This document shows positions 12,139 through 40,380 of a stretch of DNA of 40,380 nt, piece by piece. Below the pieces are notes generated by a model. The model was given only the letters and a program-made list of their open reading frames with translations, did no database searches and had not been told where the DNA came from. How positions within the stretch are numbered: position 1 is the stretch's first letter; each line of letters starts with the position of its first letter. The DNA is from a virus. The stretch lies in IMG/VR virus record IMGVR_UViG_3300042864_002099, positions 1-40,380 of that record. The stretch is one strand, 5' to 3'. Position numbers and translations under genes: made by a program.

Positions 12139-12305
12139 AAAATATCTGGTCCTAAATTTGGTTTCATACTTAAAAGGTTTTTACCTTTTACTCGTATGGT
12201 TAATGTATCTGTTATATTTAAAACACTTTTAACATCATAATTTTTTTCTGTTTTGATGTTTGATTTTTTTAACAACACTTGATCTTGAGGTTTCAAAGGT
12301 TCCAT
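12135..12305 (-). CDS. Small ORF overlapping the 3' end of the giant gene, 56 aa
   Basis: An ORF of 56 codons starts MEPLKPQDQVLLKKSNIK inside the last 71 bases of the giant gene, in the +1 frame, and ends ITDTLTIRVKGKNLLSMKPN...DIL with an ATGA overlap onto the 193-aa gene. It fills the only gap between these two genes. A weak GGGATG lies upstream. It contains an 8-bp hairpin (12171-12190, loop TTTT). It could be a genuine small structural or assembly protein, or the remnant of a longer coupled gene; the coding claim rests on position and the stop-start overlap. Confidence 0.5.
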   Translation of the reverse strand: MEPLKPQDQVLLKKSNIKTEKNYDVKSVLNITDTLTIRVKGKNLLSMKPNLGPDIL

Positions 12306-18300: not shown

Positions 18301-21300
18301 AATCATACCTAAATAAAATTCAAATTGGCTTTCACGATTTAATCTTAAATTTGTCAAATATTGGCGAGGTTCATAACCAAGATTATGTCTTGCATAATCT
18401 TGCATTGTTTGATCACCTGGAAATTCTATTGAATAGATATTTCTCATATCTTCAACAATCATTTCAAAACTAGGTTGAACACCCAACGAACTAATCATAA
18501 AACCTGGATTGTTTAAACGACCTTGCCAATTGGTAGTTCTCCATCCAGTTACACGCAATCTTGGGATGCGAGTTCCTAAAAGTGGAACATAAAGATTATC
18601 TGATAAATTAGTTGTATTTTCAAAAACAACAATATGTTCTAATGCCGTTCTAAATAAACGAACAAAAGAACAACTATTTGAATTTGTACGAACAAAAATT
18701 TCACCATCAATTCGATCAATTGTACTATCAGAATTTACAACATTATTTCCTGTTTTGTTTAATAAATTAGAAACACCACGAAAACGTTCATAAATATTTC
18801 CTATTTGACCGAAATCTTGATTGAATTGTACTAAATTAGCAAATGGATTTAAAGCAATAAAGTTACCAATTGCCCAAGGTGTTTGATTCCAAAATAAAAA
18901 TTCTTTAATTGATTGATCAAAATTATCAACCATACCTGTAATTTCATTTATATTTTCAAAAATCCATCCATCTTGTTCAAGATAAGCTTGATATTCTGCC
19001 AAGAAATTAGCAACTTCTTGTATATTGGAAAACTCAGTACCATAATCAATTTGTTTTACTTCAAGAGTAAATTCTAATGGAACTTCTACACTTGCATTTA
19101 AATCACCGCGATCAACTGATGTAATATCCCAATATTTTTGTTCAAAAAAATCTTTTGATTGGTGAATACGATTACAACGATAAGTTAAACCATTGTATTC
19201 TACAATAATATCGGTTTTATAATCAGTTCTTGCGCGCCATTTAACAACAACAGGAATTTCTCGATCATTAATTGAAATTGTTTTTTTCATACCAGTTGGT
19301 ATGTGTTCTAAACAATTAAACCAAGGAGCGATGCTATCATATCCTAATACAACAAAACCATTATTAGATTTTTCAACTATAACGGCACTTGATGTGTGTT
19401 GAGCAAAAGGAGGGCTTTCATAAAATAAAACAGAAAAATCATTTTTAGATAATATACCAGAAAAATCACTATTAAAATCCAAATATTTTTTATCAGCAAA
19501 TCCACTTGTTTTCCAAGTTAATTTTACAGTTGCGTTTTTAATATAATTTTCAAAAGAATTTGTTTTTGCACCTTGACCAATAATGTAATCAGAAAACCAT
19601 TGTGCAATTCCATAAACCGTATTTGTTTCAGTATGAAATTCAACATTTTTTGGATTTAATCTGGTTAATGTATTAGTTTGAACAATGTGATCATCATGCA
19701 CAATTTTTTCTAAATTTCTACTCCAAAATCTTTCAACGAATTGAGAAGGTTTCATCAAATATAAAACGGCGGAAGCAGCAAAAGAAAAATATTCACTATA
19801 ATAAAATGCTGTTTCAGCGGGTGAACGATCACCAAAAGACCAATTTTTGTTTCGATCAGATATAATGCTTAATTGATTTATTATTCCCGCTTCAATTGGA
19901 TCAATTAATTGACCAAATTCATTTACTGGAATTATATCAATTAATCCAGGGCGAATAAAACTTTGATCATAATAACTATTATTTGGATCAGCAACAAATC
20001 CTTTGGATAAATCATTCCAAAGTAAAACATTTTCACTTGAATAAGGAGCATTACCATAACGATTAAACCACCAATCGGGTTGATTATTAAATCCTAGCAT
20101 TTCCCAAGGAGTTAAATGAGGGCGATCTGTATCAAAAAGATAATTGTAAATTGCACGCCAAGAACCATCGGCTAATTCACCATTAAAATAAACTGAATTA
20201 TAATAATTATAAGTCCAAGGATTGCCTTCTTCGAATTGTTGTTCACGCCAACGAAGTTGTTTTAAAGTTGTAAATTTTGTAAAATAAGGCAATAATAATT
20301 GATTATATTCTTTAATAGAATATTCACAATTTGATAACTCAATATAGTTATCTTTATCTAAATCAAAATTAAAAGCAGTAAACTCAATAATAACAAAATA
20401 AGTTTTGTTATTATAAACAAACGTTTGATTACGAAGATAAAGTTTTCCTAATTCATAATTGTCATTTGTAATTGGTTTACGAAAAAATCCTTCTTTTAAT
20501 TTTTTAGTTTGTACAACCGGCAATTGATTACGATAATTTTCTAAAATATTATCGTAAATTAATTTTTCAAATTCTAAGATGATATTGTCACGATAATCAT
20601 TAAACAATTGATTTAATGATCCATCATGTCCTTGTAACCATTGTTTTGCAGGATTATAAGAATTATCTGTAATGATTTGAGGATTAAAGGGTTGTAATAC
20701 GCCCAAATGCATTGGTGTACTTGGAATATAATAAGTTGAACCGGCCATTTTTGAAGCAAAAAATGGATATTCATTATTTTTATTCAAACTTAAATTATCA
20801 AGGATTGCTAAACAAATGTTTTTTGGATTATCTTGTGTGTCAATTGTGCCAATTCTTGCTAATTCAGAAATTTTTTGAATAAATTTATTTTTATATCTAA
20901 TATATTCTCGGTTTACAAAATCTATTGCATCAACGATATTCCATTGATTTGATTTTGTAAACAATTCAGTTCGCCATAATGGAACATCGTGTTGTAAAAT
21001 ATGCACACCTTTTGTTTTATCTCTTTTAGTATCACGCCAATTGTTTGAACTTAAAGAATTTCCTTCAAAGGAATTTTGATTTTCAATAATAGAAGAAAAT
21101 TGCTCAAATAATTCACCACGAGAAATTTCTAAAACATATTCATTTAATGAATTATTTGTTAAACTTTTTGGTAATTCATAACTTCCATCTTGGTTTAATT
21201 TTTGATAAATTTTTTCACCAAAATGATACTGATCAGAAAAACGATTTTCATTAAAGTAATTAACCCAATAATCACCAATTATATCACCAAATTTACTTTG

Positions 21301-22995
21301 ATAAGTTTGTGTTTTTTGATAATTTTCAAAAATAATTTGATTTTCTTCATTTAAAGCCAATCTTACATTTAAAATTTTATCAATTGAATTTGTATTATCA
21401 ATTTTCCAAGAAAATATTTTACTACCAACAAAATTACTTTGTGGATAAACACCTTGATCAGATAAACTATTACCGTCACAATCATAAAGCCAAAATAAAA
21501 TTTCTTGATTTGCGTTTATTTTATCTTGTGCTGCTTGCCAAGTTGTGCCATCAAACCATAATTCTGAACAGCCAAATACATTTCTTTTAGACCAAAAATA
21601 AGGAACATCCCATTGAATATTTTGATTTGCGTTCATACTTGGGTCTAAGTCCCAATGTGCTTCATCCCAATTACAATAATGATCTTCAATATCGATTTTA
21701 ACAATATCGCCATAATCAGGTTCACCTAATGAAAATTCACGATCTTCTTGTAAAATTAAAACACTTTTCCCATCGACAAAACGATAAGCAAAAATTTTAT
21801 TAATTAAATTTTGATCTAAATCATTGATAACAAGAATACGATCACCATCTTTTAATGATCGTCCATTTACACCTTTAGTATTTGGCGCTTGATTACTTAA
21901 AGTTTCATCGATACTCATAGTTGGACGATTCCAAACTGCTTGAACTGCTGGTCGATGTTGTGTTCCATAATCCCATAATCTTACACATGCGTCATGTTGT
22001 AAAATCGGTCTTTTTGCTCTATTAGTAAATTCTGGTTCTAAATTAGCATGTTTCCAACAATCTTTGTGAAACCAACCATTAATCGTTGTCCAAGGATTTT
22101 CGTCTAAACTCCAACGTTCTGAAACAATATATTCTGGCGTTTCTGGAATTAAAAACTTACTCCAATCTAAAAGATAAATGCTTCTACCAACATTTTCAAC
22201 TAATTGAACATGTTTTCCTTTTGGATAATCCCATTGATCTTTACCGTTTAAATCCCATCCTTCAAAATCCCATAAATCACTAACTGTATTATCAAGAATG
22301 ATAACGCGCATACCAGTTGTTAATTTCGTTCCATTAAATTCAAAAGTTTCTTTTCCAATAATATTTTGTGCAAAATTTCCATTTGTAAAAACAACAACTT
22401 TAGAACCTATTTCTGGAATAGTGTTTAAAACCACTTTAGAGCCGTTGTAGCTATGTTCAACTGAGTTTCCATCAACCAGTACCACTGTTTCTACAACCAC
22501 GCTTTCTAGGGCTTCTGGCGCAGAAAATTCATTGGTTAAAGTTTCTTGAATATAAGTAAATCTTGGAATTGAAATTACAAAAACAGGTGGGCCATTTCTA
22601 TCCCAATAATATTGTTGAAAATTAAGCAACATATCTGGATTTATGCTTGGGCACCAACTATAGGATTGATAAGTAAAAAGACGATTTTCATCTTCAATTA
22701 AAGCACCTTGATAATTTAATCTTAAAAGAGCATCATCATAAGGTGCAACCAATGCAGTTGTATTATTCATTGAAACAACACTTGGATTTAGTTGCTTGTT
22801 TGTTCTACTAATAATTGGTTCATTAATATAAATGTCATTAGGTAACATCCAAGAAGTTTTATCACCAATCCAACCACTAAGAATATCTCTTGATCCAGGT
22901 TGAAAAACTTCATCAACTGTATTGGCTATATTTGTATCAACTCGAAAATTACGATTGACTGGTGGAAGAAATTGTGAATATTGATTGTTTTTCAT
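12235..22995 (-). CDS. Giant virion structural protein, 3586 aa
   Basis: One uninterrupted frame of 3586 codons. The N-terminal half is unusually rich in tryptophan, asparagine and aspartate, with recurring modules such as WDFEGWDLNGKDQWDYP, WDEAHWDLDP and GSWRAIYNYLFDTDRPHLTP. The C-terminal third shows a repeated strand-turn pattern (RVFVNKHEVFYG, RVYINDVESNF, KIYGNGKLLNG, VFVYVNGKKQMWG), like a string of beta modules. No signal peptide or membrane segment, no enzyme motif recognised. Its place between structural genes, and giant proteins of this style in marine T4-like phages, point to a tail or fibre component, perhaps receptor-binding. It starts one base after the stop of 22997-23356 (TAATATG), so it is coupled to it. 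Confidence 0.8.
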   Translation of the reverse strand: MKNNQYSQFLPPVNRNFRVDTNIANTVDEVFQPGSRDILSGWIGDKTSWMLPNDIYINEPIISRTNKQLNPSVVSMNNTTALVAPYDDALLRLNYQGALIEDENRLFTYQSYSWCPSINPDMLLNFQQYYWDRNGPPVFVISIPRFTYIQETLTNEFSAPEALESVVVETVVLVDGNSVEHSYNGSKVVLNTIPEIGSKVVVFTNGNFAQNIIGKETFEFNGTKLTTGMRVIILDNTVSDLWDFEGWDLNGKDQWDYPKGKHVQLVENVGRSIYLLDWSKFLIPETPEYIVSERWSLDENPWTTINGWFHKDCWKHANLEPEFTNRAKRPILQHDACVRLWDYGTQHRPAVQAVWNRPTMSIDETLSNQAPNTKGVNGRSLKDGDRILVINDLDQNLINKIFAYRFVDGKSVLILQEDREFSLGEPDYGDIVKIDIEDHYCNWDEAHWDLDPSMNANQNIQWDVPYFWSKRNVFGCSELWFDGTTWQAAQDKINANQEILFWLYDCDGNSLSDQGVYPQSNFVGSKIFSWKIDNTNSIDKILNVRLALNEENQIIFENYQKTQTYQSKFGDIIGDYWVNYFNENRFSDQYHFGEKIYQKLNQDGSYELPKSLTNNSLNEYVLEISRGELFEQFSSIIENQNSFEGNSLSSNNWRDTKRDKTKGVHILQHDVPLWRTELFTKSNQWNIVDAIDFVNREYIRYKNKFIQKISELARIGTIDTQDNPKNICLAILDNLSLNKNNEYPFFASKMAGSTYYIPSTPMHLGVLQPFNPQIITDNSYNPAKQWLQGHDGSLNQLFNDYRDNIILEFEKLIYDNILENYRNQLPVVQTKKLKEGFFRKPITNDNYELGKLYLRNQTFVYNNKTYFVIIEFTAFNFDLDKDNYIELSNCEYSIKEYNQLLLPYFTKFTTLKQLRWREQQFEEGNPWTYNYYNSVYFNGELADGSWRAIYNYLFDTDRPHLTPWEMLGFNNQPDWWFNRYGNAPYSSENVLLWNDLSKGFVADPNNSYYDQSFIRPGLIDIIPVNEFGQLIDPIEAGIINQLSIISDRNKNWSFGDRSPAETAFYYSEYFSFAASAVLYLMKPSQFVERFWSRNLEKIVHDDHIVQTNTLTRLNPKNVEFHTETNTVYGIAQWFSDYIIGQGAKTNSFENYIKNATVKLTWKTSGFADKKYLDFNSDFSGILSKNDFSVLFYESPPFAQHTSSAVIVEKSNNGFVVLGYDSIAPWFNCLEHIPTGMKKTISINDREIPVVVKWRARTDYKTDIIVEYNGLTYRCNRIHQSKDFFEQKYWDITSVDRGDLNASVEVPLEFTLEVKQIDYGTEFSNIQEVANFLAEYQAYLEQDGWIFENINEITGMVDNFDQSIKEFLFWNQTPWAIGNFIALNPFANLVQFNQDFGQIGNIYERFRGVSNLLNKTGNNVVNSDSTIDRIDGEIFVRTNSNSCSFVRLFRTALEHIVVFENTTNLSDNLYVPLLGTRIPRLRVTGWRTTNWQGRLNNPGFMISSLGVQPSFEMIVEDMRNIYSIEFPGDQTMQDYARHNLGYEPRQYLTNLRLNRESQFEFYLGMIQSKGTASVFERLKRSTFISQNDDLGFLEEWAFRTGEFGQLDNRENLVIELNAHSIVTNSQLIKFINEDGIDQLGDNTIEIYNNSSNWINRPNRKIDLTNRKSIFKTTGPVKLTEVKYSAFDFNDFSNLIVEEQIYSLEEKDKILLYNENFKTSAFRVTQLGAEENSILSISEEGIVEFSRPHELTSDAWLFFNLNPLNSTEFYGVYQVKIVDTLRVELIDNPGISGTFEETAIVFKFVNISQGLIDYNIDFSENEIVYSEENAYQFINGSFQLLRTTEDFPDNRLILASQLCDVENKTEDFKRFVYPKLTNDFIAWDVLDGLIPGSPLLVLDFTTSKDPINNLEFNQDNLGKTWWDTSTAYFINYKIDKNDLIYTRDNWSKLAPRSKIDIYVYISSDVTPDAYNGEVKSVEEFKTFEETLTNGNRVTRYAYWVKQNNFILKNNQTIEQLINNIINPIDEGFNLIAWTNPNIVLLTNLQQFNQTTRLQLNYRETKQQNNHHKEYVCVKRNDSQNAIPKFLWKKMVDSLCGQNSLGEPTPQIGLIHNLGNNIRPNQTWFKNRNLAAENIFKFINYTLSLINLNDEFPDAYQQLTALDNEPEYSFKIGTGYDKIELPLAKYQNYEYSKIYSNTNEIDLNDLTENERILIDTRSINNSYSVKIKKSDKLILAKNYDYVVDDRLSRNEIANTLSIGNRVLVAVDENYNNVSTLWTFDPNSTYADNFGFVFLRYARNHKTDFVTLKNWYAVDPNEPPVVVYPDIQSRTSAEAQFQNNQQLNFVKINDDGTGNWIWQKKIDNKWQTVAKQNGTVEFSEKLWKNNNLIFNGINENDFVENFVNRNPAYEIRDFFEILRTEIFSRQQENQTFFAAVNYVLAEQDNPDWLFKTSFMSVNGFKERMWASPIKMQNHWDDLLSYIEETKPYHVKLRDVKRKLSPDRDDSFWWLSDFDNSPRLIDGKVKILNPYNQEDQITINETRAGRDYYDVYDRVNRDRNNYDANTYNPVRKIKMKMRLDRVTTKYKGWDTFSWNNSSAFDSENQQTVTTNTTELIDSSYGNQPFDNIPYNGYNKNSSRWVDQLGAVGRILKYYNPRLNQNKNIQDLMSIKNVQTITGGNFVAVNYDIRELTWDNENLETTHSLLIWGVKKQSETNQTYTLPQVYNQKNIQVYFEKTGNIGFDRLINGKDYVVNNDQVVTNLNNNNGTIAILIVGNDLIDLKLSGGELARGFKYVADLAQTVFSIDADFDFDETNTRVFVNKHEVFYGSKANQYLFDNLKQNVVLIQPTNRLDEVIILITKPKMPWDIDVNGGNFIFSDDRCEERANVIIYDPLKIITTRKNSRGVSQIKSNLVEYNNNSVLSTEIFPFWVDSWINGVKDRNFVLNQLNYSVSNNLWLNELVEISTRSMSGNPVEPDKILFGEISTNQIVFDYDLTDVYHIRVFKNTLESVYTTNLNQIVVNGTIGDEVIVMIYKKTILQEEIVIANQFSFIQNFLDAFENQIFYPRVYINDVESNFTIIDKNTIAWVSLSTDIVKVELSNQPYDFDFEQYRQIVIPGANPNQIAFPNNLVKNDILTGVKIYGNGKLLNGPDHIYRKFAGVERIITMQNYSSVNDLIVRFNNEDLIVGSSIMYSALNQVDLDVWPNDIIPANADVLLVENTLIFKDYLEGNVFVENITVSDYRWNKTTEILEINNPDSVELEIDVIENQQKETVHLRYWGNNYARYNVPSKPINPAYVFVYVNGKKQMWGKDWIWNTHAIDAWDNQGWDTNNWDMGKISSIQLIPTHKTSDIIEIFIEPNNHAEMEASWGQFVNGKFSEHFSINDQNVGNVIALERDLSLTKRVQADWMREGSQYALYRTGERLEGRRIEDNGTTAVASLLTNQTQHTTNQNYIITDFVKISVQVGQDEYLVPWNENEFYVERDNLIYYNYTKTRIGNNVYVKLNTVPTSEFDLVVNKINVYDDKSFKENERVILVDSKSRLAGPVEIFKNTSWDVGFWNKFKWDDKLNGTFETSRSSVVKKIKHQNRKKL

Positions 22996-23528: not shown

Positions 23529-23837
23529 TTATGTGTATTTTAACAACATTTCTACCTGAAAGGCATTTGTTTGATTTGGGTGATCTTTTAACCAATCGTG
23601 AACGTTTTTATAATGTTTCCCATTTAAACAAAATCTTTTAATTCCGTCCTCATTAATATATGAGGGTCCAGTTAATCGATGCCATCTATCTCTTATTTCG
23701 CACCAAAGTTTTTCTCCTGTTAAAGTATCTTCATAAGCGGGAGTATTTTCACTATATGAAGATACTTCTCCCCAAGGGACTCTATAATAAAAATCGGTTG
23801 TAAATTTTTTACCATTTACGTAATAAATATATCTCAT
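23529..23837 (-). CDS. HRLTGP-family small protein, 102 aa
   Basis: Closest relative of 469-777: opening MRYIYYVNGKKFTTDFYY, VPWGEVSSYSENTPAYED, LWCEIRDRWHRLTGPSYI, and the same variant tail QTNAFQVEMLLKYT. These two minus-strand copies form a subfamily distinct from the plus-strand ones ending LWYLQN. Shine-Dalgarno AAGGAT lies nine bases before the ATG, and a TTGACA promoter with extended -10 lies at 23860-23887. Function unknown. Confidence 0.8.
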   Translation of the reverse strand: MRYIYYVNGKKFTTDFYYRVPWGEVSSYSENTPAYEDTLTGEKLWCEIRDRWHRLTGPSYINEDGIKRFCLNGKHYKNVHDWLKDHPNQTNAFQVEMLLKYT

Positions 23838-25542: not shown

Positions 25543-27423
25543 ATGAACAAAATAAAAGATGATATTATTGATGCGCTAACCCCTTATCAACAAGCAAGAG
25601 CTAGACCTGGAATGTGGTTTGGTAGCGAAACTCCAAATGAAGATAATTTAGTTGTTTTTAATGGTAATGAATTAGAATATAAAAATATTCGATACACGCC
25701 AGCAATTGCAACAATGTTTAGAGAAATTGTTGATAATTCATTAGATGAAATTAGCAAAGGTTTTGGAAATGTTTTAAAATTAAATTACAATCCAACTACT
25801 TTTACTTTTTCAGTATTAGATAATGGGCGCGGTATTCCTTTAGATAAAGTTCAACTTGTTTTCACAAGTATGTTTTCTGGTAGAAATTTTCGTGAACGTG
25901 GCGAACAAGCAGGACAAAATGGTGTTGGTGCAGCAGTTGCAGCTTTTACTTCTTTAGAATTTACGGTTGATGTTTGGCGTGATGGTAAACATTTAACTCA
26001 AAAATTTTCTGAATCAAAAGAAAAAGGTGGCGATTTTGGACCAGAAAATATTATAATCCATGAACAAATTGTAAAACCTTATAAAGGTAAAAATGTTGGA
26101 ACACAAGTAACATTAACGCCAAGCGGTCGGGTTTATAAACATTTATTAATGCCAGAAGAATACTTAAAAGCGCGTGCTTGGGAAATTGCTGCAAATAATC
26201 CAAACATAAAAGTTTATTGGAATGACGAATTATTAAAATCAGCTAAAACAACACAGGCTACATTATTTTCTAATAAAAAACCCATTGTTATTGAAATTAC
26301 TGAACCAGATTTTAACAGTGTTTTTTATTTGCAACCACATTTTGCTGAAAATTTAGATGAAGAAGTTGTTCATAGTTCTGTAAACAATATCCCAGCTTGG
26401 GATAAAGCGGGTAAACATATTAGTGCTTTTAGAAATACTTTTTATAATGGATTATTAGAAGCTTTAAAATTAGAAAGTAAGCGTCGTAAATTAAATCCAA
26501 ATCGCAGTGACATTGCAGCCGGATTATTAATTTATAATGTTACTAAAATGAAAGCCCCAACATTTGATAGTCAAAATAAAACAAGATTAACAAATGTTGA
26601 AGCTGAACGCGCAATTAAGAAAAATTTAGATGGTGAAGTTGAATATAAGAAAATTATAAAACAATATCCAGAATGGATTGATGATATTTACGCTCGTTGT
26701 TCTGAACGCACACAAAAATTAGACAATTCAGAAGCAGCAAAATTAGCTAAGAAAATGCGTAAAGCAAAAGTTGCTGGTTTATTAGATGCCACTGGAAGCA
26801 ATAGAACATTTTGTCGTTTGTTAATTGGTGAAGGTGATTCAGCAGTTGGAATGATTGCGCCTGCTCGTGATCCAAAAATTCATGGCGGTTTAGCTTTAAA
26901 AGGAAAGCCATTAAATGTGTTTGATAAAACCGCTCGTGAAGTTTTAGAAAATGATGAATTACGTGATATTTGTAATGCTATTGGATTAATTCCAGGCCAA
27001 AAAGCTGTATTAAGTGATTTAAGATATGGGCAAGTTTGGTTTGCAACCGACATGGATCATGATGGAAGTCATATTTGTGGTTTATTAACAAATTTCTTTT
27101 ATAAATGGTGGCCTGAATTATTTGATGATAAAAAGCCTTATTTTTATGCATTTATGACGCCTTTTATTATTGCTGAAAAAGGTAAACAAAAGTCGTATTG
27201 GTATGGCGATAATGTTGCTGAATTTAAGCCAGAAGAATATCGTGGATGGAATATTCGTCGTGCTAAAGGTTTGGGTTCTTTGGAAGAATCAGATTGGGTT
27301 ACAAGTTTAAAAAATCCTAAATTAATTCCAATTTCGGATGATGGTCGTTTAGGTGAATTAATGAGTTTAATTTTTAATAATGAACGTGCAGATGATCGAA
27401 AGGTTTGGTTAGCTCATGAGTAA
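25543..27423 (+). CDS. Type II DNA topoisomerase large subunit (T4 gp39-like, GyrB/ParE type)
   Basis: A 626-residue subunit with GHKL ATPase motifs REIVDNSLDEI (60-70), DNGRGIP (93-99) and GQNGVGAAVA (124-133), a transducer region, and a TOPRIM domain with EGDSA near 430 and DMDHDG near 503-508. It ends ADDRKVWLAHE, typical for this family. With a gp52-like cleavage subunit, not in this window, it would relax or supercoil phage DNA during replication. Shine-Dalgarno AGGAA precedes the ATG. The next gene starts within its last codons (8-base overlap). Confidence 0.93.
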   Translation: MNKIKDDIIDALTPYQQARARPGMWFGSETPNEDNLVVFNGNELEYKNIRYTPAIATMFREIVDNSLDEISKGFGNVLKLNYNPTTFTFSVLDNGRGIPLDKVQLVFTSMFSGRNFRERGEQAGQNGVGAAVAAFTSLEFTVDVWRDGKHLTQKFSESKEKGGDFGPENIIIHEQIVKPYKGKNVGTQVTLTPSGRVYKHLLMPEEYLKARAWEIAANNPNIKVYWNDELLKSAKTTQATLFSNKKPIVIEITEPDFNSVFYLQPHFAENLDEEVVHSSVNNIPAWDKAGKHISAFRNTFYNGLLEALKLESKRRKLNPNRSDIAAGLLIYNVTKMKAPTFDSQNKTRLTNVEAERAIKKNLDGEVEYKKIIKQYPEWIDDIYARCSERTQKLDNSEAAKLAKKMRKAKVAGLLDATGSNRTFCRLLIGEGDSAVGMIAPARDPKIHGGLALKGKPLNVFDKTAREVLENDELRDICNAIGLIPGQKAVLSDLRYGQVWFATDMDHDGSHICGLLTNFFYKWWPELFDDKKPYFYAFMTPFIIAEKGKQKSYWYGDNVAEFKPEEYRGWNIRRAKGLGSLEESDWVTSLKNPKLIPISDDGRLGELMSLIFNNERADDRKVWLAHE

Positions 27424-27811
27424 TTATGTTTATTATATAGATGGTAAAGAATATACAACGAATGATGCCATCTCATTATATGATAATTATGTTTATTATG
27501 TAGATGGTAAACGATTTACAACTAATAATTATGATGAAATTCCTTGGGATGATATTTCGTCACCAGATGAAAATACACCTGCATTTATAGATACTATGTT
27601 GTGTAGAAATGTTTGGTACTTAAAAGGAAAGGTTTATCATCGCTTAACTGGTAAAATATTTGATGGTCATGATGAATATTTTTATTTAAATGACAAATAT
27701 TATGAAAATGTTCATGATTGGCTTAAAGAACATCCAAATCCCGATTTATATTTTCATAAAATTGGTATTTTTACTGAAACCGATAAGGTTCTTTGGTATT
27801 TGAAAAATTAG
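27416..27811 (+). CDS. HRLTGP-family protein with duplicated N-terminal hairpin, 131 aa
   Basis: The N-terminal hairpin occurs twice: NYVYYIDGKEYTTND, then NYVYYVDGKRFTTNN, with the rest of the unit once (DDISSPDENTPAF, VYHRLTGKIFDG, NVHDWLKEHPNPDLYF) and the tail GIFTETDKVLWYLKN. The duplication is visible in the DNA, so it is recent. The core HRLTGP lacks the usual A (GK instead). It starts within the topoisomerase stop. Function unknown. Confidence 0.8.
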   Translation: MSNYVYYIDGKEYTTNDAISLYDNYVYYVDGKRFTTNNYDEIPWDDISSPDENTPAFIDTMLCRNVWYLKGKVYHRLTGKIFDGHDEYFYLNDKYYENVHDWLKEHPNPDLYFHKIGIFTETDKVLWYLKN

Positions 27812-27820
27812 GAGATACAT

Positions 27821-28153
27821 ATGTTTTATGTTTATTACGTTGATGGTAAAAAATTCACAACTGATACATTCGATAAAATACCTAAGAATAATATTTCTTC
27901 ACCAAATGAAAATATTCCAGCAATTGAGGATAGAAATACAAAATATAAAGAATGGTGTGATAAAGGAAATATTATACATCGATTAACTGGACCAGCAATT
28001 ATTCATGCTAATGGTTCAGAATGGTTTTATTTAAATAATATATTTTATGAAAATATTCGGGATTGGATTAATAATCATCCAAATCCAGATTTATACTTTG
28101 ATGCAATTGGCTTGACTGAAACAGATCGAGTGTTATGGTTTTTACAAAACTAA
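27821..28153 (+). CDS. HRLTGP-family protein, 110 aa
   Basis: Standard one-unit member: FYVYYVDGKKFTTDTF, ISSPNENIPAIED, EWCDKGNIIHRLTGPAII, NIRDWINNHPNPDLYFDAIG and tail LTETDRVLWFLQN. Shine-Dalgarno AGGAG lies seven bases before ATG. Ten bases after the previous stop, so the genes are in one operon. No catalytic motif; likely a small beta protein with a C-terminal helix. Function unknown. Confidence 0.82.
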   Translation: MFYVYYVDGKKFTTDTFDKIPKNNISSPNENIPAIEDRNTKYKEWCDKGNIIHRLTGPAIIHANGSEWFYLNNIFYENIRDWINNHPNPDLYFDAIGLTETDRVLWFLQN

Positions 28154-28160
28154 ATACTTT

Positions 28161-28448
28161 ATGTATAAAGTTTGGGATGGTGAAAAATATATTGAATTAG
28201 AATATCATCAAATTCCTTGGTTAAATATAAATTTTGGTCGATTAGATGGGCCTTCTGTAATTTCTTTTAATAATTATCAATATTATTGTTATAAAGGAAA
28301 ATATCATCGAATTAATGGACCAGCAATTATATTACCATTTAAACATACTTGGTGGTTACATGGTAATCGATATAATTTTAAAGATTTTATAGAAAATAAT
28401 AATTATATTTCAGAAACCGAAAAATTATTATTATGTTTAAAATATTAA
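28161..28448 (+). CDS. Divergent HRLTGP-family protein, 95 aa
   Basis: A diverged copy: MYKVWDGEKYIELEYHQIPW replaces the usual hairpin, with two GP motifs, GRLDGPSVI and YHRINGPAII, and a degenerate tail SETEKLLLCLKY. The KYHRxxGPA repeat with spacing of about 30 residues resembles multi-repeat proteins of phages and giant viruses, which suggests the core is a repeatable beta unit. It is the last gene before the Hsp20 leader. Confidence 0.75.
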   Translation: MYKVWDGEKYIELEYHQIPWLNINFGRLDGPSVISFNNYQYYCYKGKYHRINGPAIILPFKHTWWLHGNRYNFKDFIENNNYISETEKLLLCLKY

Positions 28449-28471: not shown

Positions 28472-28495
28472 ATTTAGCAAAATTATTTGCTAAAT
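28472..28495. other. 10-bp inverted repeat upstream of Hsp20
   Basis: ATTTAGCAAA (28472-28481) and TTTGCTAAAT (28486-28495) form a perfect stem with loop ATTA. No U-run follows on either strand, so it is unlikely to be an intrinsic terminator. It could be an operator or an RNA thermometer-like leader hairpin, 90 bases before the Hsp20 start. Confidence 0.4.
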
Positions 28496-28585
28496 AAAAA
28501 AAGCAATCTAAGTGATTGTCTGGAAATGCTTATTAAAAGGTTTCCAAATAAATTAAACATTCTAGCCTTATTGGGAGAAAAACAA

Positions 28586-28990
28586 ATGTCAAATGGTTAT
28601 CTAAGTCAAATTTTATTCCGTGAATTAATCAATTCTGTAGGAGCAACAGTTCCAAACGATACGGATTATCCAAGATATAATGTATTAGAACAAAATGAAA
28701 ATATTACTGTGTTAGAATTAGCGGTAGCTGGTTTTAAAAAAGAAGAATTAACAGTAAAGCAAGAATTTAAAAATAATACAATTAAACAAGTATTAACAAT
28801 TGAAGGTAAAAAAGAAGAGAAAAAAGAATATGCTTATAAAGGCATTTCTACTCGTGATTTTAAACGAGAATTTAGTCTTCCTGAATATACAGAAATTAAA
28901 GAAGTTACTTTAGTTGATGGTATTTTAAGCGTTGTTTTAGAAAAACAAGTACCAGAAGACAAAAAACCAAAAACGTTTACTATAAATTAA
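28586..28990 (+). CDS. Small heat-shock protein (Hsp20 family)
   Basis: A 134-residue alpha-crystallin-type chaperone. The start at 28586 follows GGGAG (ttgggagaaaaacaaATG) and gives the usual phage Hsp20 opening MSNGYLSQILFRELI. The ACD follows: YNVLEQNENITVLELAVAGF, KEELTVKQE, LTIEGKKEEK, ISTRDFKREFSLPEYTEIKE, and a G-x-L strand DGILSVVLEKQ. Such proteins hold unfolding host or phage proteins and are common in T4-like phages. A strong bidirectional terminator follows immediately. Confidence 0.9.
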   Translation: MSNGYLSQILFRELINSVGATVPNDTDYPRYNVLEQNENITVLELAVAGFKKEELTVKQEFKNNTIKQVLTIEGKKEEKKEYAYKGISTRDFKREFSLPEYTEIKEVTLVDGILSVVLEKQVPEDKKPKTFTIN

Positions 28991-29016
28991 AAAAGGGGGA
29001 TATTTCCCCCTTTTTT
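28989..29016. terminator. Bidirectional intrinsic terminator
   Basis: A 12-bp perfect stem (AAAAAAGGGGGA and its complement) with loop TATT. A-run on one side and T-run on the other, so it works for the Hsp20 transcript on the plus strand and for the gene at 29015 on the minus strand, whose stop it overlaps. Confidence 0.85.
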
Positions 29017-29338
29017 AATAATTAATATCTAGTATTACATGTTCACGAAATTCAATAGAACCAATATCATCATTGGTCCATTCTTCTTCATTAACAGAAT
29101 ATCCATTTAGTTCTAAGTATTCGATAAAATCTTTAATCTTATTTTTGTTAAAAATTGGATTATTATAATCCCAAACAAATTCAAAAAAACATTTTTTATT
29201 TTTAATAGCTTTTAGTAGAACATTATTAAAGTCTGTTTTAAGGTTTTCTGAAATTTTTTCAGAAACAACATTGATTTTATCTTGTGAATAGTCACTAAAA
29301 AGTTGTTGAGCTTGATAAGCAGTAAGAATGTTTTGCAT
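29015..29338 (-). CDS. Hypothetical protein, 107 aa
   Basis: Starts at the ATG at 29338 (MQNILTAYQAQQLFSDYSQDK), after AAAGG; the longer reading to 29398 runs through the promoter and is rejected. Acidic C-terminal half with EEWTNDDIGSIEFREH. No domain recognised. It resembles, in size and in having a private promoter and terminator, the single-gene units at 1425 and 30610. Transcribed from the promoter at 29370-29398. Confidence 0.7.
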   Translation of the reverse strand: MQNILTAYQAQQLFSDYSQDKINVVSEKISENLKTDFNNVLLKAIKNKKCFFEFVWDYNNPIFNKNKIKDFIEYLELNGYSVNEEEWTNDDIGSIEFREHVILDINY

Positions 29339-29369
29339 TTTAAAACCTTTCTGTTTGATTGTTAAAATT

Positions 29370-29398
29370 AATATAGAAAATTTTCTGGTTTTTGTCAA
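29370..29398 (-). promoter_or_regulatory. Promoter with CCAGAAAATTTTC spacer
   Basis: TTGACA (29398-29393), 17-base spacer, TATATT (29375-29370): near-consensus. The spacer carries CCAGAAAATTTTC, nearly identical to the spacer at 30541-30557. It lies 32 bases before the 107-aa gene. Confidence 0.75.
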
Positions 29399-29453: not shown

Positions 29454-29487
29454 AGAAGTTGATAATTAGTTTAAGGAGATTATAATT

Positions 29488-29787
29488 ATGACAACAAGCA
29501 CAGTAACATTAACAATGGAAGAAATTTTAAATTCACTTCCACCAAAACATAAAGTTATTTTTCACAATGATGATGAAACATCAGTTGATTATGTAATTAG
29601 TGTATTAAGTGCTATTTTTAATTTTACATACGAAGAAGGTGAAGAATTAGCTTATGAAATTGACCGGGAAGGTTATGGTGTTGCTGGGGTTTATGATGAA
29701 AAAATTGCCCAATTAAAATGTGAACAAGTTAAAGAAATGAATAAAAAATGGGGAAAAAATTTGAAAGTAACACATGAGCCTGAATAA
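29488..29787 (+). CDS. clpS: ClpS-like adaptor of ClpAP protease
   Basis: A 99-residue protein with the ClpS core: PPKHKVIFHNDDETSVDYV (NDD at 27-29), an FNFTYEEGEELAYEI helix, and GYGVAGVYDEKIAQLK. ClpS delivers N-degron proteins to ClpAP. Two pocket residues differ from the bacterial norm: the E. coli M40 position is V33 and the H66 position is D59 (EIDREG in place of VHxxG). These would affect recognition of the substrate's N-terminus. Shine-Dalgarno AAGGAG precedes the ATG. A ClpA partner is not encoded here, so it would act on the host protease. Confidence 0.88.
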   Translation: MTTSTVTLTMEEILNSLPPKHKVIFHNDDETSVDYVISVLSAIFNFTYEEGEELAYEIDREGYGVAGVYDEKIAQLKCEQVKEMNKKWGKNLKVTHEPE

Positions 29788-30116
29788 TGTTTATTTATTA
29801 TATTGATGGTGAAAAATTTATTTCAGATGATGTTCACATTCCTTGGTTAGAAATTTCATCACCCAATGAAAATACACCCGCTTATGAAGATTTAACAACT
29901 GGATATAAAGAATGGTGCGAAAAAGGATGGAAATTTCATCGATTAATAGGTCCAGCGCATATTCGATCAGATGGAAGTAAATTTTTCTTTTTAAATGGAA
30001 AAAAATATAAAAACGTAAAAGAGTGGATTAAAGATCATCCTAATCCTGATCTTTATTTCGATGCAATTGGTGTTCTTACTGAAACAGACAAAATTCTATG
30101 GTTTTTACAAAATTAA
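29787..30116 (+). CDS. HRLTGP-family protein, 109 aa
   Basis: Standard member: MFIYYIDGEKFISDDVHIPW, ISSPNENTPAYED, EWCEKGWKFHRLIGPAHI (LIGPA variant), NVKEWIKDHPNPDLYFDAIG, tail VLTETDKILWFLQN. Starts one base inside the clpS stop (TAATG), so it is translated with ClpS. Its tight coupling to ClpS is the only contextual hint of function. Confidence 0.82.
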   Translation: MFIYYIDGEKFISDDVHIPWLEISSPNENTPAYEDLTTGYKEWCEKGWKFHRLIGPAHIRSDGSKFFFLNGKKYKNVKEWIKDHPNPDLYFDAIGVLTETDKILWFLQN

Positions 30117-30127
30117 GGAAATAATAA

Positions 30128-30520
30128 ATGAACGAAACAATAAAAAATTATTTAAAATCTGGAATATTTAAAACTGAAAATACTTCACAACGAGATTTTA
30201 TTGTTAGAATTAAAAATGAAATTTATTATTGTGCCAATATGAGTTTATTTACTAAAGAAATTTTAGAAGGAACTTATGATGATTTGCCGTCAATGGAAAG
30301 ACCATATGCTGAATATAAAGTTTGGTATGAAAACGGTAAAAGGCATCGATTAACTGGACCCGCAACAATACATCGCGCAGGTTGCGATTATTGGATAGAA
30401 GGAAAATATTATGAAACCGTAAAAGAATGGATTAATAATCACCCAACCCCCGATTTGTATTTTCATAAAATTGGTATTTTTACAGAAACAGATAAAGTTC
30501 TTTGGTATTTGCAAAATTAA
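30128..30520 (+). CDS. Chimeric HRLTGP-family protein, 130 aa
   Basis: The N-terminal 65 residues (MNETIKNYLKSGIFKTENTS, FIVRIKNEIYYCANMSLF) do not match the usual YYIDGEKFTT opening, while the second half is standard (RHRLTGPATI, YWIEGKYYETVKEWINNHP, tail GIFTETDKVLWYLQN). The last 150 bases differ by only 4 from the end of the gene at 32514-32843, so the C-terminal half was copied or converted recently. Function unknown. Confidence 0.8.
   Translation: MNETIKNYLKSGIFKTENTSQRDFIVRIKNEIYYCANMSLFTKEILEGTYDDLPSMERPYAEYKVWYENGKRHRLTGPATIHRAGCDYWIEGKYYETVKEWINNHPTPDLYFHKIGIFTETDKVLWYLQN
30371..30520 (+). repeat. Paralogous tract A, 150 bp, 97% identical to 32694-32843
   Basis: Counted by eye, 146 of 150 bases match the tract at 32694-32843, extending at lower identity about 30 bases upstream. 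Elsewhere the paralogs are much more diverged, so this is a recent gene conversion or duplication. Confidence 0.85.
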
Positions 30521-32197: not shown

Positions 32198-32517
32198 TGC
32201 GAATTTATATTATAGGTGATAGTCCTACTCGGTTAAAGATAGGAATAAGTGAGGATTGCCAAAAACGTTTGCGAGAATTGCAAACAGGCAATCCAAATTT
32301 ATTGACTTTATATTGGGCGAGTGATAATTTAACAAAAGAAAATGCTTATGTAATTGAACAACTATTTCATAAGAAAAATAATTTTAGAAGAATTAAAAAC
32401 GAATGGTTTGAATTAGATTTAGAATTAGCTAAAGCAGAATTATTATTGGCCGTTAATTCTTTAGGTATGGAAGAAAACATAAAGCATAAATTTAAGCAAG
32501 GATTTTTAAAATATTGA
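32197..32517 (+). CDS. GIY-YIG-type nuclease-like protein (T5orf172/Mug113 group)
   Basis: A 106-residue protein with a YIIG opening (MRIYIIGDSPT), KIGISEDCQKRLRELQTGNP, and a C-terminal NEWFEL; the invariant arginine and glutamate pattern of the T5orf172 group is present (KRLRELQ; AYVIEQLFH). Such small nucleases are often mobile or act in DNA processing. The usual GIY half appears as YIIGD, so the call is to the broader superfamily. It starts one base within the nrdB stop. Confidence 0.75.
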   Translation: MRIYIIGDSPTRLKIGISEDCQKRLRELQTGNPNLLTLYWASDNLTKENAYVIEQLFHKKNNFRRIKNEWFELDLELAKAELLLAVNSLGMEENIKHKFKQGFLKY

Positions 32518-32843
32518 TCGTTTATTACATTGATGGTGAAAAATTTACAACTGAGAATATAAATAATATTCCTCTTTATGAAATATCTTCACCAGATGAA
32601 AATACACCAGCGCTTGAATATACAATATCGGGTAATAAACTTTGGTGTGAAAAAGAAAAATTTTGGCATCGATTAACAGGACCAGCATCAATACATCGCA
32701 CAGGTTGCGATTATTGGATAGAAGGAAAATATTATGAAACCGTAAAAGAATGGATTAACAATCACCCAACCCCCGATTTGTATTTTCATAAAATTGGTAT
32801 TTTTACAGAAACAGATAAAGTTCTTTGGTACTTACAAAATTAA
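32514..32843 (+). CDS. HRLTGP-family protein, 109 aa
   Basis: Starts with TTG in a TTGA overlap with the preceding stop; AAGGA lies 13 bases upstream. Standard order: IVYYIDGEKFTTENIN, ISSPDENTPALEY, LWCEKEKFWHRLTGPASI, YWIEGKYYETVKEWINNHP, tail GIFTETDKVLWYLQN. Its second half is nearly identical in DNA to that of 30128-30520. Confidence 0.8.
   Translation: MIVYYIDGEKFTTENINNIPLYEISSPDENTPALEYTISGNKLWCEKEKFWHRLTGPASIHRTGCDYWIEGKYYETVKEWINNHPTPDLYFHKIGIFTETDKVLWYLQN
32694..32843 (+). repeat. Paralogous tract B, 150 bp, 97% identical to 30371-30520
   Basis: Partner of the tract at 30371-30520; 4 differences in 150 bases by eye. The upstream 150 bases of the two genes differ strongly. Confidence 0.85.
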
Positions 32844-32852
32844 GGAAAACAA

Positions 32853-33524
32853 ATGACATATATTTATTATATTGATGGTGAAAAATTTATAACAGAAAAT
32901 TATCATGAAATTAATCGTTGGATAATTTCTTCACCAGACGAAAATACACCTGCTTTTGAAAATTTAGAAACAGGTGAAAAATATTGGTGCGAAACAGGCG
33001 AAATTTATCATCGTTTAACTGGACCAGCAAAAATTTATTCAGATGCTTATTTTGAATTTTGGGTAAATAATAGATTTTATCCTGATGTTTATACTTGGCT
33101 TATGGATCATGATAATAAAAATGAAAACTTTCAAAACAAAATGATTGAAAATTATAAAAATAATAATATTATTATTAATAATATAAACTATCAATATATT
33201 TATTACATTGATGGTAAAAAATATACTACTGAAAATTATGATAATATTGATTTTTATGAAATTTCTTCTATCAATGAACAAACACCAGCTTATGAAAATG
33301 TAATTACAGGCAAAAAAATTTGGTGTGAAAAAAGATTTAAATTACATCGATTGATTGGTCCCGCCGAAATTCACGATAATGGGACAGAAAATTATTATTT
33401 AAATGGTAAATGTTATTATAGTAATATTAATTATTGGTTAACAGAACACCCAAATCCCGATTTGTACTTTGATGCAATTGGTTTGAATGAACCCGATAAA
33501 GGTCTTTGGTACTTACAAAATTAA
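32853..33524 (+). CDS. Two-unit HRLTGP-family protein, 223 aa
   Basis: Two family units in one frame. Unit 1 (residues 1-105): TYIYYIDGEKFITENYHE, ISSPDENTPAFE, YHRLTGPAKI. It lacks the usual tail; unit 2 (about 113-223): YIYYIDGKKYTTENYDN, LHRLIGPAEI, HPNPDLYFDAIG and tail NEPDKGLWYLQN. The link NYKNNNIIINNINYQ joins them. Only the C-terminal copy carries the LW tail, which suggests that the tail must be at the true C-terminus. Shine-Dalgarno AAGGA lies ahead. Confidence 0.82.
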   Translation: MTYIYYIDGEKFITENYHEINRWIISSPDENTPAFENLETGEKYWCETGEIYHRLTGPAKIYSDAYFEFWVNNRFYPDVYTWLMDHDNKNENFQNKMIENYKNNNIIINNINYQYIYYIDGKKYTTENYDNIDFYEISSINEQTPAYENVITGKKIWCEKRFKLHRLIGPAEIHDNGTENYYLNGKCYYSNINYWLTEHPNPDLYFDAIGLNEPDKGLWYLQN

Positions 33525-33823: not shown

Positions 33824-35077
33824 ATGATAGATATTAATATAATTAAAAATAATCCTCAAATAATTGAAGAAAATCTTAAAAAAAGAAATTTAAATTTTCC
33901 TCTTAAAGATATGATTGATTTAGAGATTAAAAAACGTGAATTATTAACACAAATCAATTTAAAAAATGCTGAAAAAAATAAACTTTCATTATTAATGAAG
34001 GATAGCGAAATTCGCAACAAAATATTAGAAAAATATAATAAATTAAATAACGAATACTCTGAAATAAAACAGTTAGAATTAAAATATAAGAATGATTTTG
34101 AAAAATTATATTATGAACTACCCAATATTTTAGATGACAGTGTACCTATTGGTTTAGACGAAAATGATAATGTCATTATTTATGAACATCTAGTACAAAC
34201 TAATTTTACATTTGAACCTAAACCACATTATAAAATATCTATGATTGAAACATTATTTAATTTTGAAGATTCTACTAAAATTTCAGGAAATAGAACGGCT
34301 ATTTTAATTGGAGAATTAGCAAAATTAGAGCGTATATTGGGACAATATATGCTTGATACACAAGTTGAAAATGGTTTTACCGAAGTTAATACGCCTGTTA
34401 TTGTAAACGAACAGGCATTGTTTAATACGGGCCAATTACCAAAATTTAAAAATGATCTTTATAAAATAGAAAATTTACATTTAAATAAATATTTACTTCC
34501 TACATCAGAAGTAACATTAACCAATTTATTTGCAAATACTATTTTAGATAATGCAGCTAAAAAATTAGCTGCATTAACACAATGTTTTAGATCAGAAGCA
34601 GGCGCTGCTGGAAAAGATCAAAAAGGTATATTCCGACAACATCAGTTTGCAAAAGTTGAATTAGTTGCAGCAACAAAACCAGAAAATAGCGAGGCTATGC
34701 TCGAAGAAATTACAAACTCCGCTGAATCTATTTTAATAAATCTTAAATTACCTTATAGAAAAATGTTATTATGTTCTGGTGATATCGGGTTTTCTTCTAA
34801 AAAAACATATGATTTAGAAGTGTGGATACCATCTGAAAATAAATACCGTGAAATAAGCAGTTGTAGTAATTGTGGGGATTTTCAAGCAAGACGCATGAAT
34901 GCACGATTTAAACGAACAAAAAATTCAAAACCTGAATTTGTTCATACGTTAAATGGAAGTGGATTAGCAGTTGGGAGAACCTTAATTGCAATTTTAGAAA
35001 ATTATCAAACAGAAAATGGAAATATTAAAATTCCAGATGTATTAATACCTAGATATGGTAAAGAATATTTAATGTAA
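33824..35077 (+). CDS. serS: Seryl-tRNA synthetase
   Basis: A complete 417-residue class II synthetase, about bacterial length. N-terminal long helical hairpin (about 28-100) for tRNA-Ser binding; TSE at 227-229 for the serine site; motif 2 in FRSEAGAAG (255-263) and FRQHQFAKVE (270-279); ISSCSNC (344-350) and DFQARRM; motif 3 in NGSGLAVGRTL (377-387). All key residues look intact, so it is probably active and charges tRNA-Ser. LLCSGDIGFSSKKTYDLEVW and ISSCSNCGDFQARR resemble alphaproteobacterial SerRS from memory. Start is ATG at 33824 (MIDINIIKNNP); no strong Shine-Dalgarno. It is bracketed by 27-bp repeats. Confidence 0.95.
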   Translation: MIDINIIKNNPQIIEENLKKRNLNFPLKDMIDLEIKKRELLTQINLKNAEKNKLSLLMKDSEIRNKILEKYNKLNNEYSEIKQLELKYKNDFEKLYYELPNILDDSVPIGLDENDNVIIYEHLVQTNFTFEPKPHYKISMIETLFNFEDSTKISGNRTAILIGELAKLERILGQYMLDTQVENGFTEVNTPVIVNEQALFNTGQLPKFKNDLYKIENLHLNKYLLPTSEVTLTNLFANTILDNAAKKLAALTQCFRSEAGAAGKDQKGIFRQHQFAKVELVAATKPENSEAMLEEITNSAESILINLKLPYRKMLLCSGDIGFSSKKTYDLEVWIPSENKYREISSCSNCGDFQARRMNARFKRTKNSKPEFVHTLNGSGLAVGRTLIAILENYQTENGNIKIPDVLIPRYGKEYLM

Positions 35078-37667: not shown

Positions 37668-38915
37668 CTACTTTATAAACAATATTAAAGAATAAAATTG
37701 AACTGAATATTTTTCAAAAAACAATTCTTCTAATACTGCTTCCAATTCACGATTATTAATTAATCTTATAATATTTGATTTAGATAAAAATTTATTTAAT
37801 TCTGAATAGTTTTCTGTAACATCAAAATTAAATAGTTTTCCTAATTTTTTTAAATATTCTTCTCGATATAAATTTTCATCCATTGCAACAGTTAAAGCCA
37901 ATTCAATTCTTTTCATTATAGCTAAAACTTTATCTAAATCTTGTTCGTAATTAACGCCACCAGGAGCGCGAATTTCTAAATAATTTTCATTTTCTAAATG
38001 TAAAAAATTAACACTTTGGTATTTTTGATCAAATAAATTTAATAAATCATCATTAAATGATTTATTATCTATTTCTGATGTTATTTTAACATCTTTTTTA
38101 ATAAATTTTTCAATTTTATCTTTTAATTGGCGAGTGTATTTTGAATTATTTTCACGATTAAATTGTTTTAAAACATAAAGATCATCAAAAAATACCATAA
38201 ATTTTAATATATCAATATCATCTGTTGAAAAAGTACCAACGTTTATATGTAATCCAGTAGAAGGATTGGTTTCTAAATAATCATCATCTTCTATAAAATC
38301 AAATATCTTTTTTAATGAAATTTTAGCTTCATCTGAATTTAAAATTGGCGAGACAATTTCAACACCTAATGGCTTAATGCTTGTATCTTCTACTATTTGC
38401 CATTCTGGTTGTTCTGGAAGTTGCATATTATCTAAATCTTGTTCAATTGAATATTTTAATTGTTCAAAAACATTATCATTATCTGGATCATAATATGTTT
38501 TATTTTCTAACCATTCTCCAAATTGCTCATCACTATCAACAATATCTTCGGCTTCAACATCAATATAATTTTGTAATTCTCTGAATGTTTTACATTTTTC
38601 TAAATCAATTTCTTCATCCGTTTCTAAATCAATAATTGTATAATCATTTTCAGAATAATCATAACCATCTTTTAAATTATAATCTTGAAGAATTTGAATA
38701 AATTTATATTCCCATATTTTTTCTGCTGCACGTTCAACATCAAAATTTTCATCAAACGCATCTCTTGCTGCATCAAAATTTGGATAATCAAATTCACTAT
38801 CCATATAACGTTGATTAACTGCTATTTCAAATTCAAAACCCCATGTAAAATCAGTTCGACTTTTTGATTTTCTATTCATAGGCATATTTTTTTCTTGTAA
38901 TTGTTTTAATCTCAT
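37668..38915 (-). CDS. Amidoligase (putative carboxylate-amine ligase)
   Basis: A 415-residue protein with the order expected of Amidoligase_2/glutamine-synthetase-fold ligases: TWGFEFEIAV near 25-33, EDTSIKPLGVEIVSPIL, TGLHINVG and LEIRAPGGVNYE. These enzymes form amide bonds between carboxyls and amines, in peptide or cell-wall modification. Its role in phage is not established; possibilities are modification of host peptidoglycan or of phage proteins. The first half also holds a very acidic stretch (DLETDEEIDLEKC, EDIVDSDEQFGEWLE). Nearby I42-like inhibitor is on the other strand. Confidence 0.78.
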   Translation of the reverse strand: MRLKQLQEKNMPMNRKSKSRTDFTWGFEFEIAVNQRYMDSEFDYPNFDAARDAFDENFDVERAAEKIWEYKFIQILQDYNLKDGYDYSENDYTIIDLETDEEIDLEKCKTFRELQNYIDVEAEDIVDSDEQFGEWLENKTYYDPDNDNVFEQLKYSIEQDLDNMQLPEQPEWQIVEDTSIKPLGVEIVSPILNSDEAKISLKKIFDFIEDDDYLETNPSTGLHINVGTFSTDDIDILKFMVFFDDLYVLKQFNRENNSKYTRQLKDKIEKFIKKDVKITSEIDNKSFNDDLLNLFDQKYQSVNFLHLENENYLEIRAPGGVNYEQDLDKVLAIMKRIELALTVAMDENLYREEYLKKLGKLFNFDVTENYSELNKFLSKSNIIRLINNRELEAVLEELFFEKYSVQFYSLILFIK

Positions 38916-39461: not shown

Positions 39462-39663
39462 CCTTACAATCATTGTAATAATAGGAGTGATGATTTTTTT
39501 ATCATCACTCCTATTTTCTCAAGCCAATATTTATCAAACACAAGTTGATAATTTGCTTAATTCTTATGGTTTTACTGAAATTAAATATGAAAATAAAAAG
39601 CCATTTACTTGCCCACAACAGTTAGAAAAAACAATACATAATTATTTTTTCTTTTTTGTATGA
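39454..39663 (+). CDS. Possible membrane-anchored small protein, truncated at the TnpB gene
   Basis: A 69-codon ORF with a hydrophobic N-terminal span (IIVIIGVMIFLSSLLF) and a polar rest (TQVDNLLNSYGFTEIKYENK), ending in FFFFV within the tnpB 3' end. The span is encoded by the terminator hairpin 39480-39515, so part of it could be an artefact; the polar region looks coding. The 8-base overlap with the preceding gene favours translation. The 3' end may have been overwritten when tnpB arrived. Confidence 0.42.
   Translation: MHNLTIIVIIGVMIFLSSLLFSQANIYQTQVDNLLNSYGFTEIKYENKKPFTCPQQLEKTIHNYFFFFV
39480..39515 (+). terminator. Intrinsic terminator, 15-bp stem
   Basis: A perfect inverted repeat (ATAGGAGTGATGAT and complement, plus one flanking A-T pair) around a six-T loop and followed by TTTT. 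It begins 19 bases after the 60-aa gene, as a terminator should. Confidence 0.7.
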
Positions 39664-40380
39664 GAAACTGCTAATTCCTCACCATTTAAATCAAATAAAC
39701 TATTAATTCCCCAAAAGAAACCAGTTCGATTTAATTTTAATGCCATAAAATCATAACTAATAGAAAACAAAGTTATACTATTATTTTTAGCCGCATTCAA
39801 ATCTGCATTATCGGTATGACCGCAATGACAACATTCAAATGTTTCTTGGCTCCTGTTTGATTTATGTACGTAACCACAAGAAAAACATCGTTGAGAACGA
39901 TAATAACTCTTGTTATGTTTTACTTGGACGCCAAGTAATTCACATTGATTTATTAATGCAGAATTTATATCTCGCCAAGACCAAGAATTTAAATATGATG
40001 ATAATCTTCGACTATGTTTTATATTCTTGTTACTTTCTACATTAATTAATTTAATTCCATTTAAATTTAATTGCTTTACAGACCAATTTATATAATTAAT
40101 CCTATGTGCAACTGCTTTTTTATAATTTTTACTCCCTCTTTTCTTAGTTGAAATCTTTTTACAAATTGTTTTTAAATTATGTCCGTGATTACAAGAGATA
40201 GTTTGTTGATTATCTGATAAACTTACTGCTGTATTCAATCCAATATCCGCACCTATTATTTTTGTTCCAGTATTTTTTTGTGCAATAATATTCCATCTCA
40301 AATCAATAGATTTTTCTTTTAACAAAATACTCGTCATTAATGATCCAATATTCAACATAATATTAGAATGTTTTGTATGT
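39642..40380 (-). CDS. tnpB: TnpB/OrfB RNA-guided nuclease, 5' end beyond the window
   Basis: The frame stays open to the window edge (reading HTKHSNIML upstream of the first ATG), so this is the C-terminal 245 residues of a protein usually near 370-400. RuvC motifs are present: D in IIGADIGLNTAV, E in LINVESNKNIKHSRR, D in NADLNAAKN. The OrfB zinc ribbon is complete: two CxxC pairs, CFSC and CCHC, in SQRCFSCG...ECCHCG. TnpB uses an omega RNA to cut DNA next to a target motif. No TnpA or end sequence was seen in the window. Confidence 0.88.
   Translation of the reverse strand, partial: HTKHSNIMLNIGSLMTSILLKEKSIDLRWNIIAQKNTGTKIIGADIGLNTAVSLSDNQQTISCNHGHNLKTICKKISTKKRGSKNYKKAVAHRINYINWSVKQLNLNGIKLINVESNKNIKHSRRLSSYLNSWSWRDINSALINQCELLGVQVKHNKSYYRSQRCFSCGYVHKSNRSQETFECCHCGHTDNADLNAAKNNSITLFSISYDFMALKLNRTGFFWGINSLFDLNGEELAVSHTKKKK

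Follow-up and report, generated by a model that had tools for sequence, protein, structure and literature searches.

The virus record analyzed here, of which the whole stretch of 40,380 bases (26.8% GC) is referred to as the window, encodes a ClpS protein in which V33 takes the place of the gatekeeper M40 of Escherichia coli ClpS, D59 takes the place of the pocket residue H66, and the ClpA-binding face is altered as well. With a probability of about 0.55, we regard this protein as a working adaptor with an altered, perhaps Ile/Val-tolerant specificity that hands its targets via the modified face to a ClpA-type unfoldase; the family, the fold, the residue changes with their rarity, the recurrence of D66, and the gene context are seen in the data, whereas the binding, the specificity, and the delivery are what we infer. 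In the proposed mechanism, ClpS is probably produced together with the phage HSP20, the two forming a small proteostasis module. The ClpS pocket would receive the N-terminus of a target: N27 and D28 together with D59, an acidic replacement for the histidine as in UBR1 and UBR2, would hold the alpha-amino group with its positive charge, and V33, being smaller, would leave more room for the side chain, permitting the binding of hydrophobic N-termini with a specificity that is altered and may be wider (Ile, Val). The adaptor would then pass the target to a ClpA-type unfoldase of the host or the phage via its modified contact face. We favor this reading because the pocket residues other than those at positions 40 and 66 are kept, because an aspartate is present at position 66 in UBR1/UBR2 and in Leptospira ClpS1, because D66 recurs in viral ClpS proteins, and because of the hsp20 context and the matches to ClpS by profile, PDB sequence, and fold. 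As for the gate, Met40 of E. coli ClpS excludes beta-branched residues (PMC12493166), the apicoplast ClpS accepts Ile (PMC7966870), and the smaller Val of the window ClpS would be expected to admit more side chains. What counts against this reading is that the UBR1/UBR2 pocket is not identical, having a tyrosine gate and a histidine at the T38 position, that two of the three ClpA contacts are changed, that the sequence is highly divergent, and that in E. coli ClpS a joint exchange of D35, D36, and H66 for alanine reduces substrate binding (PMC9810338).

The source of the window is a large T4-like phage. Its T4-type topoisomerase is closest to those of the jumbo phages Phosso and Atu_ph07 (46% identity), and NrdB and HSP20 are also encoded. 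The positions of clpS, its neighbors, and several further genes are given in Table 1.

Table 1. Features of the 40,380-base window, with positions counted from its first base.
Feature	Position	Strand	Remarks
clpS coding sequence	29488..29787	+	99 aa, ATG start; ClpS adaptor
AAGGAG ribosome-binding site	29473..29478	+	9 nt before the clpS ATG; read from the sequence
NDD motif, residues 27-29	29566..29574	+	E. coli N34 D35 D36; kept
V33	29584..29586	+	position of E. coli gatekeeper M40, by alignment
D59	29662..29664	+	position of E. coli H66, by alignment
Altered ClpA-binding face	29701..29718	+	K72 (E79), Q75 (E82), K77 (K84, kept)
HSP20 small heat-shock protein	28487..28990	+	TTG start; first gene upstream of clpS on the same strand; counterpart of the hsp20 in the conserved phage pair
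ORF of unknown function	29015..29398	-	between hsp20 and clpS
HRLTGP-family protein	29787..30116	+	109 aa; ATG overlaps the clpS stop (TAATG)
HRLTGP-family ORFs, nine paralogues	469-789, 23529-23837, 27416-27811, 27821-28153, 28161-28448, 29787-30116, 30128-30520, 32514-32843, 32853-33524	both	scattered; one with two domains
3586-aa protein	12235-22995	-	probably a very large tail protein or adhesin; weak match to a carbohydrate-binding module, nothing else
Seryl-tRNA synthetase-like protein	33824-35077		PHROG 16140, E=9e-136
Putative amidoligase in phage	37668-38915	-	PF12224
TnpB/Cas12f-like transposase-related protein	39642-40358	-	Cas12f1-like TNB domain

The assignment to the ClpS family is based on a match to the Pfam profile PF02617 (E=2.3e-22, 79 bits at a cut-off of 23), in which residues 18-95 cover profile positions 3-80; the protein also matches PHROG 27368 and, by sequence, ClpS chains in the PDB, and it misses the NCBIfam equivalog cut-offs (best 54 vs 112). 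An AlphaFold2 model shows the ClpS fold with a mean pLDDT of 87.7 (93-97 in the core), and its best PDB neighbors are the E. coli and Caulobacter ClpS proteins; as the input was an alignment of bacterial ClpS sequences, the model supports compatibility with the fold and not the detail of the pocket. It replaced a poor single-sequence fold (pLDDT 49.5). The core comprises approximately residues 18-97 and aligns with E. coli ClpS without gaps, and the N-terminal extension of about 17 aa has a low pLDDT. The sequence is highly divergent, with about 35-42% identity to its best viral matches and about 24-33% to bacterial ClpS. When viral and GTDB contigs were scanned with protein seeds (the ClpS proteins of the window, Phosso, and the Vibrio phage and the seryl-tRNA synthetase of the window), no confirmed relatives were found.

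In a multiple alignment, the E. coli pocket residues N34, D35, D36, T38, V43, and L99 are kept in the window ClpS, V65 is an isoleucine, and M40 and H66 correspond to V33 and D59. The initial annotation had named these two replacements and the preserved NDD motif, and the multiple alignment agrees on all three; nor does it restore a pocket histidine, as there is none near D59. H26, at E. coli position 33, was considered as a compensating histidine and dismissed: of the 117 viral ClpS proteins listed, 13 have His33, all of them together with H66, and nothing specific speaks for it.

The rarity of the two replacements can be judged from bacterial and viral sequences. In a survey of a single phylum, the Pseudomonadota, ClpS was present in 112 of 120 genomes; 70 matches were fetched, and 69 were usable after one (L133) with an internal stop and a missing pocket was left out. 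All 69 have H66; at position 40, 62 of them have M and 7 have R. For viruses, a DNA pattern that required NDD, T38, V43, and V/I65 and permitted H, D, N, or Y at position 66 retrieved at least 120 contigs from IMG/VR; among the matches listed, 119 were real ClpS proteins and 117 of these were distinct. H66 is present in every one of these 117, and position 40 is M in 97, I in 7, V in 6, A in 3, F in 2, Y in 1, and Q in 1. An Asp-only version of the pattern returned ten contigs, five of which (L291-L295) encode ClpS, representing one distinct sequence; the other five are chance matches to unrelated proteins. The identical D66 ClpS of these five contigs was found in different samples. The isolate phages differ at position 66: Vibrio phage 2.275.O has D, Atu_ph07 has E, GAP32 has K, Hallingskeid has N, and all others have H. 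The D59 change is thus real and rare, and V33 is real and not rare among viruses, where it represents a modest, recurring variant. In the Rak2-like phage ClpS proteins (L006, L007, L008, L010, L014, L015), the N-terminal extension is much longer, and K84 has been lost together with much of the pocket motif. The ClpS of 'Acinetobacter phage MD-2021a' (L013) was rejected as a phage protein, as its clpS-clpA-argC context resembles host DNA.

An aspartate at the H66 position is known from N-recognins. According to a review, D263 of UBR1 is the single pocket residue that differs from ClpS (PMC8346999), and in the PDB sequences the position lies within IDKEG in UBR1 and VDRDG in UBR2, compared with IDREG in the window ClpS; a profile of the window and phage ClpS proteins finds UBR1 and UBR2 with E of about 2e-5. 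ClpS1 of Leptospira interrogans has Asp62 in place of the histidine, together with a non-Met gate and an altered ClpA face (PMC12493166). In a tree of the ClpS proteins, the D66 protein L291, whose pocket is otherwise canonical, is nested in an H66 clade with a support of 96, and therefore the exchange of H for D arose independently at least once within phage ClpS. We do not claim a common ancestry of D66 in the window and Vibrio phage proteins, which the tree joins via long branches that were flagged as unsafe. On chemical grounds, a carboxylate should be able to accept the positively charged alpha-amino group. Together with the aspartate of working N-recognins and the recurrence of D66 in phages, this suggests that D59 more likely represents another kind of clamp than a broken clamp. 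The initial annotation had suggested changed or lost N-degron binding; a change is plausible, whereas a loss is disfavored by the aspartate in working N-recognins and by the other pocket residues checked, which are kept.

The second working face of the protein also departs from the norm, which the initial annotation had missed. The ClpA contacts of E. coli ClpS are E79, E82, and K84 (PMC12493166), and only the last of these is kept in the window ClpS, as E79 is replaced by K72 and E82 by Q75. In the viral set listed (n=117), glutamate is found at position 79 in 110 proteins and at position 82 in 112, and lysine at position 84 in 110. As the window ClpS is unusual at its pocket as well as at its ClpA face, a different unfoldase partner is possible; a delivery of targets to ClpA is uncertain from these residues, and another ClpA or ClpC may be used. 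A phage-encoded ClpA is known from Atu_ph07 and the majority of its Rak2-like relatives (PMC6102473). These changes bear on the model of the initial annotation, according to which the protein would be a decoy that binds host ClpA and not N-degrons, and thereby blocks or redirects host ClpAP. We consider this unlikely. The near-universal H66 in bacteria and phages is in line with it, as is the fact that H66 is part of the E. coli substrate site, where the exchange of D35, D36, and H66 for alanine reduced substrate binding (PMC9810338). However, this loss was caused by a triple alanine exchange, which is a different change from H66D, although position 66 may still matter; aspartate occurs at this position in working N-recognins and is met again in phage ClpS proteins that are canonical in other respects, the remaining pocket is kept, and the exchanges of E79 for K and E82 for Q do not favor a tight ClpA decoy. 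That the protein binds ClpA without normal substrates is therefore unsupported as stated, the pocket being mostly intact and the other altered surface being the one that contacts ClpA.

Slightly less probable than the decoy is an ordinary ClpS with unchanged Leu/Phe/Trp/Tyr specificity, whose differences would be due to neutral drift and which would only boost the host N-degron turnover. Phage ClpS proteins are common and mostly canonical, valine recurs at position 40, and an aspartate could, by its chemistry, bind the amino group; but gate and clamp, both otherwise conserved in bacteria, are altered here in one and the same protein. A more far-reaching and still less probable reading is a phage-private N-degron pathway, with a substrate set different from that of host ClpS, an Asp clamp as in UBR1, a small Val gate that admits Ile and Val, and a ClpA face adapted to an unfoldase that is unusual or encoded by the phage; if true, the phage would degrade targets of its own choice in parallel with the host pathway. 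It is very improbable that the protein merely has the ClpS fold and, decaying or repurposed, lost its adaptor role by drift at pocket and ClpA face alike, as the joint changes at positions 40, 66, 79, and 82 and the Rak2-like phage ClpS proteins without most pocket residues (e.g., GAP32, L006) are outweighed by the intact ORF with a good ribosome-binding site, the kept NDD, T38, V43, and L99, and the confidently predicted core fold.

The gene context, likewise overlooked by the initial annotation, is one of the points in favor of the working adaptor. Among the matches listed, 111 viral ClpS loci extend 600 bases or more upstream of clpS, and 85 of them contain an HSP20-like gene; in 83 of the 124 ClpS loci fetched, clpS follows hsp20 on the same strand after a gap of no more than 83 nt. 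The order is hsp20-tk-clpS in Atu_ph07 and Phosso and hsp20-clpS in PA5oct. The window keeps the order of hsp20 followed by clpS, with one opposite-strand ORF in the 497-nt gap, and this supports a proteostasis role in common with HSP20. In L293-L295, an hsp20-like gene is also present, apparently on the opposite strand, and in the IMG/VR contigs L171-L290 the same fetched stretch often contains genes for S21 (45 loci), a ClpX-like protein (20), or IF3 (14). A limited literature search found no description of the hsp20-clpS pair, and within the scope of that search, the count of its prevalence is a new element.

The gene downstream of clpS had been proposed to be co-translated with it and to encode a possible partner. 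The one-base overlap at 29787 is real, and translational coupling of clpS and this HRLTGP gene is probable from the arrangement. The partnership is weak, and the conserved phage neighbor is hsp20; we rejected a dedicated ClpS partner because the paralogues are scattered on both strands of the window and because the family is absent from every other clpS locus fetched. With one member as query, no matching record was found in the phage collection. The second halves of the ORFs starting at 30128 and 32514 are nearly identical, which suggests recent copying.

That phage ClpS proteins bring targets to host ClpAP has already been proposed (PMC7824862); new is that a single phage protein combines a UBR1-like aspartate and a Val gate with an altered ClpA face. 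It offers a natural test of whether an aspartate can replace the supposedly key ClpS histidine, and by connecting bacterial ClpS with the UBR1/UBR2 pocket, it bears on the evolution of N-degron specificity. The widespread hsp20-clpS pair suggests that the control of host proteolysis by phages is common and not exceptional.

Compared with known systems, the window ClpS shares with the bacterial proteins (E. coli YljA, Caulobacter ClpS; PF02617) the fold, the gapless core, NDD, T38, V43, L99, and K84, and differs from them by V at M40, D at H66, K at E79, and Q at E82. The ClpS proteins of jumbo and environmental phages (Atu_ph07, Phosso, PA5oct, GAP32, Vibrio 2.275.O; PMC7824862, PMC6102473) are likewise phage-borne and are often encoded beside hsp20, IF3, S21, or clpX, but unlike the window protein, they mostly keep M40/H66 and E79/E82/K84. 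Vibrio phage 2.275.O has D66 as in the window but a Phe gate, and Atu_ph07 has a glutamate at position 66. Leptospira interrogans ClpS1 is a bacterial paralogue in which, unlike in the window ClpS, the gate is Tyr36 and K84 is replaced by Val. The N-domains of human UBR1 and UBR2, which are working N-recognins, have the same aspartate at the H66 position, but they belong to large ubiquitin ligases without ClpA contact, with a tyrosine gate and a histidine where the window ClpS has V33 and T31.
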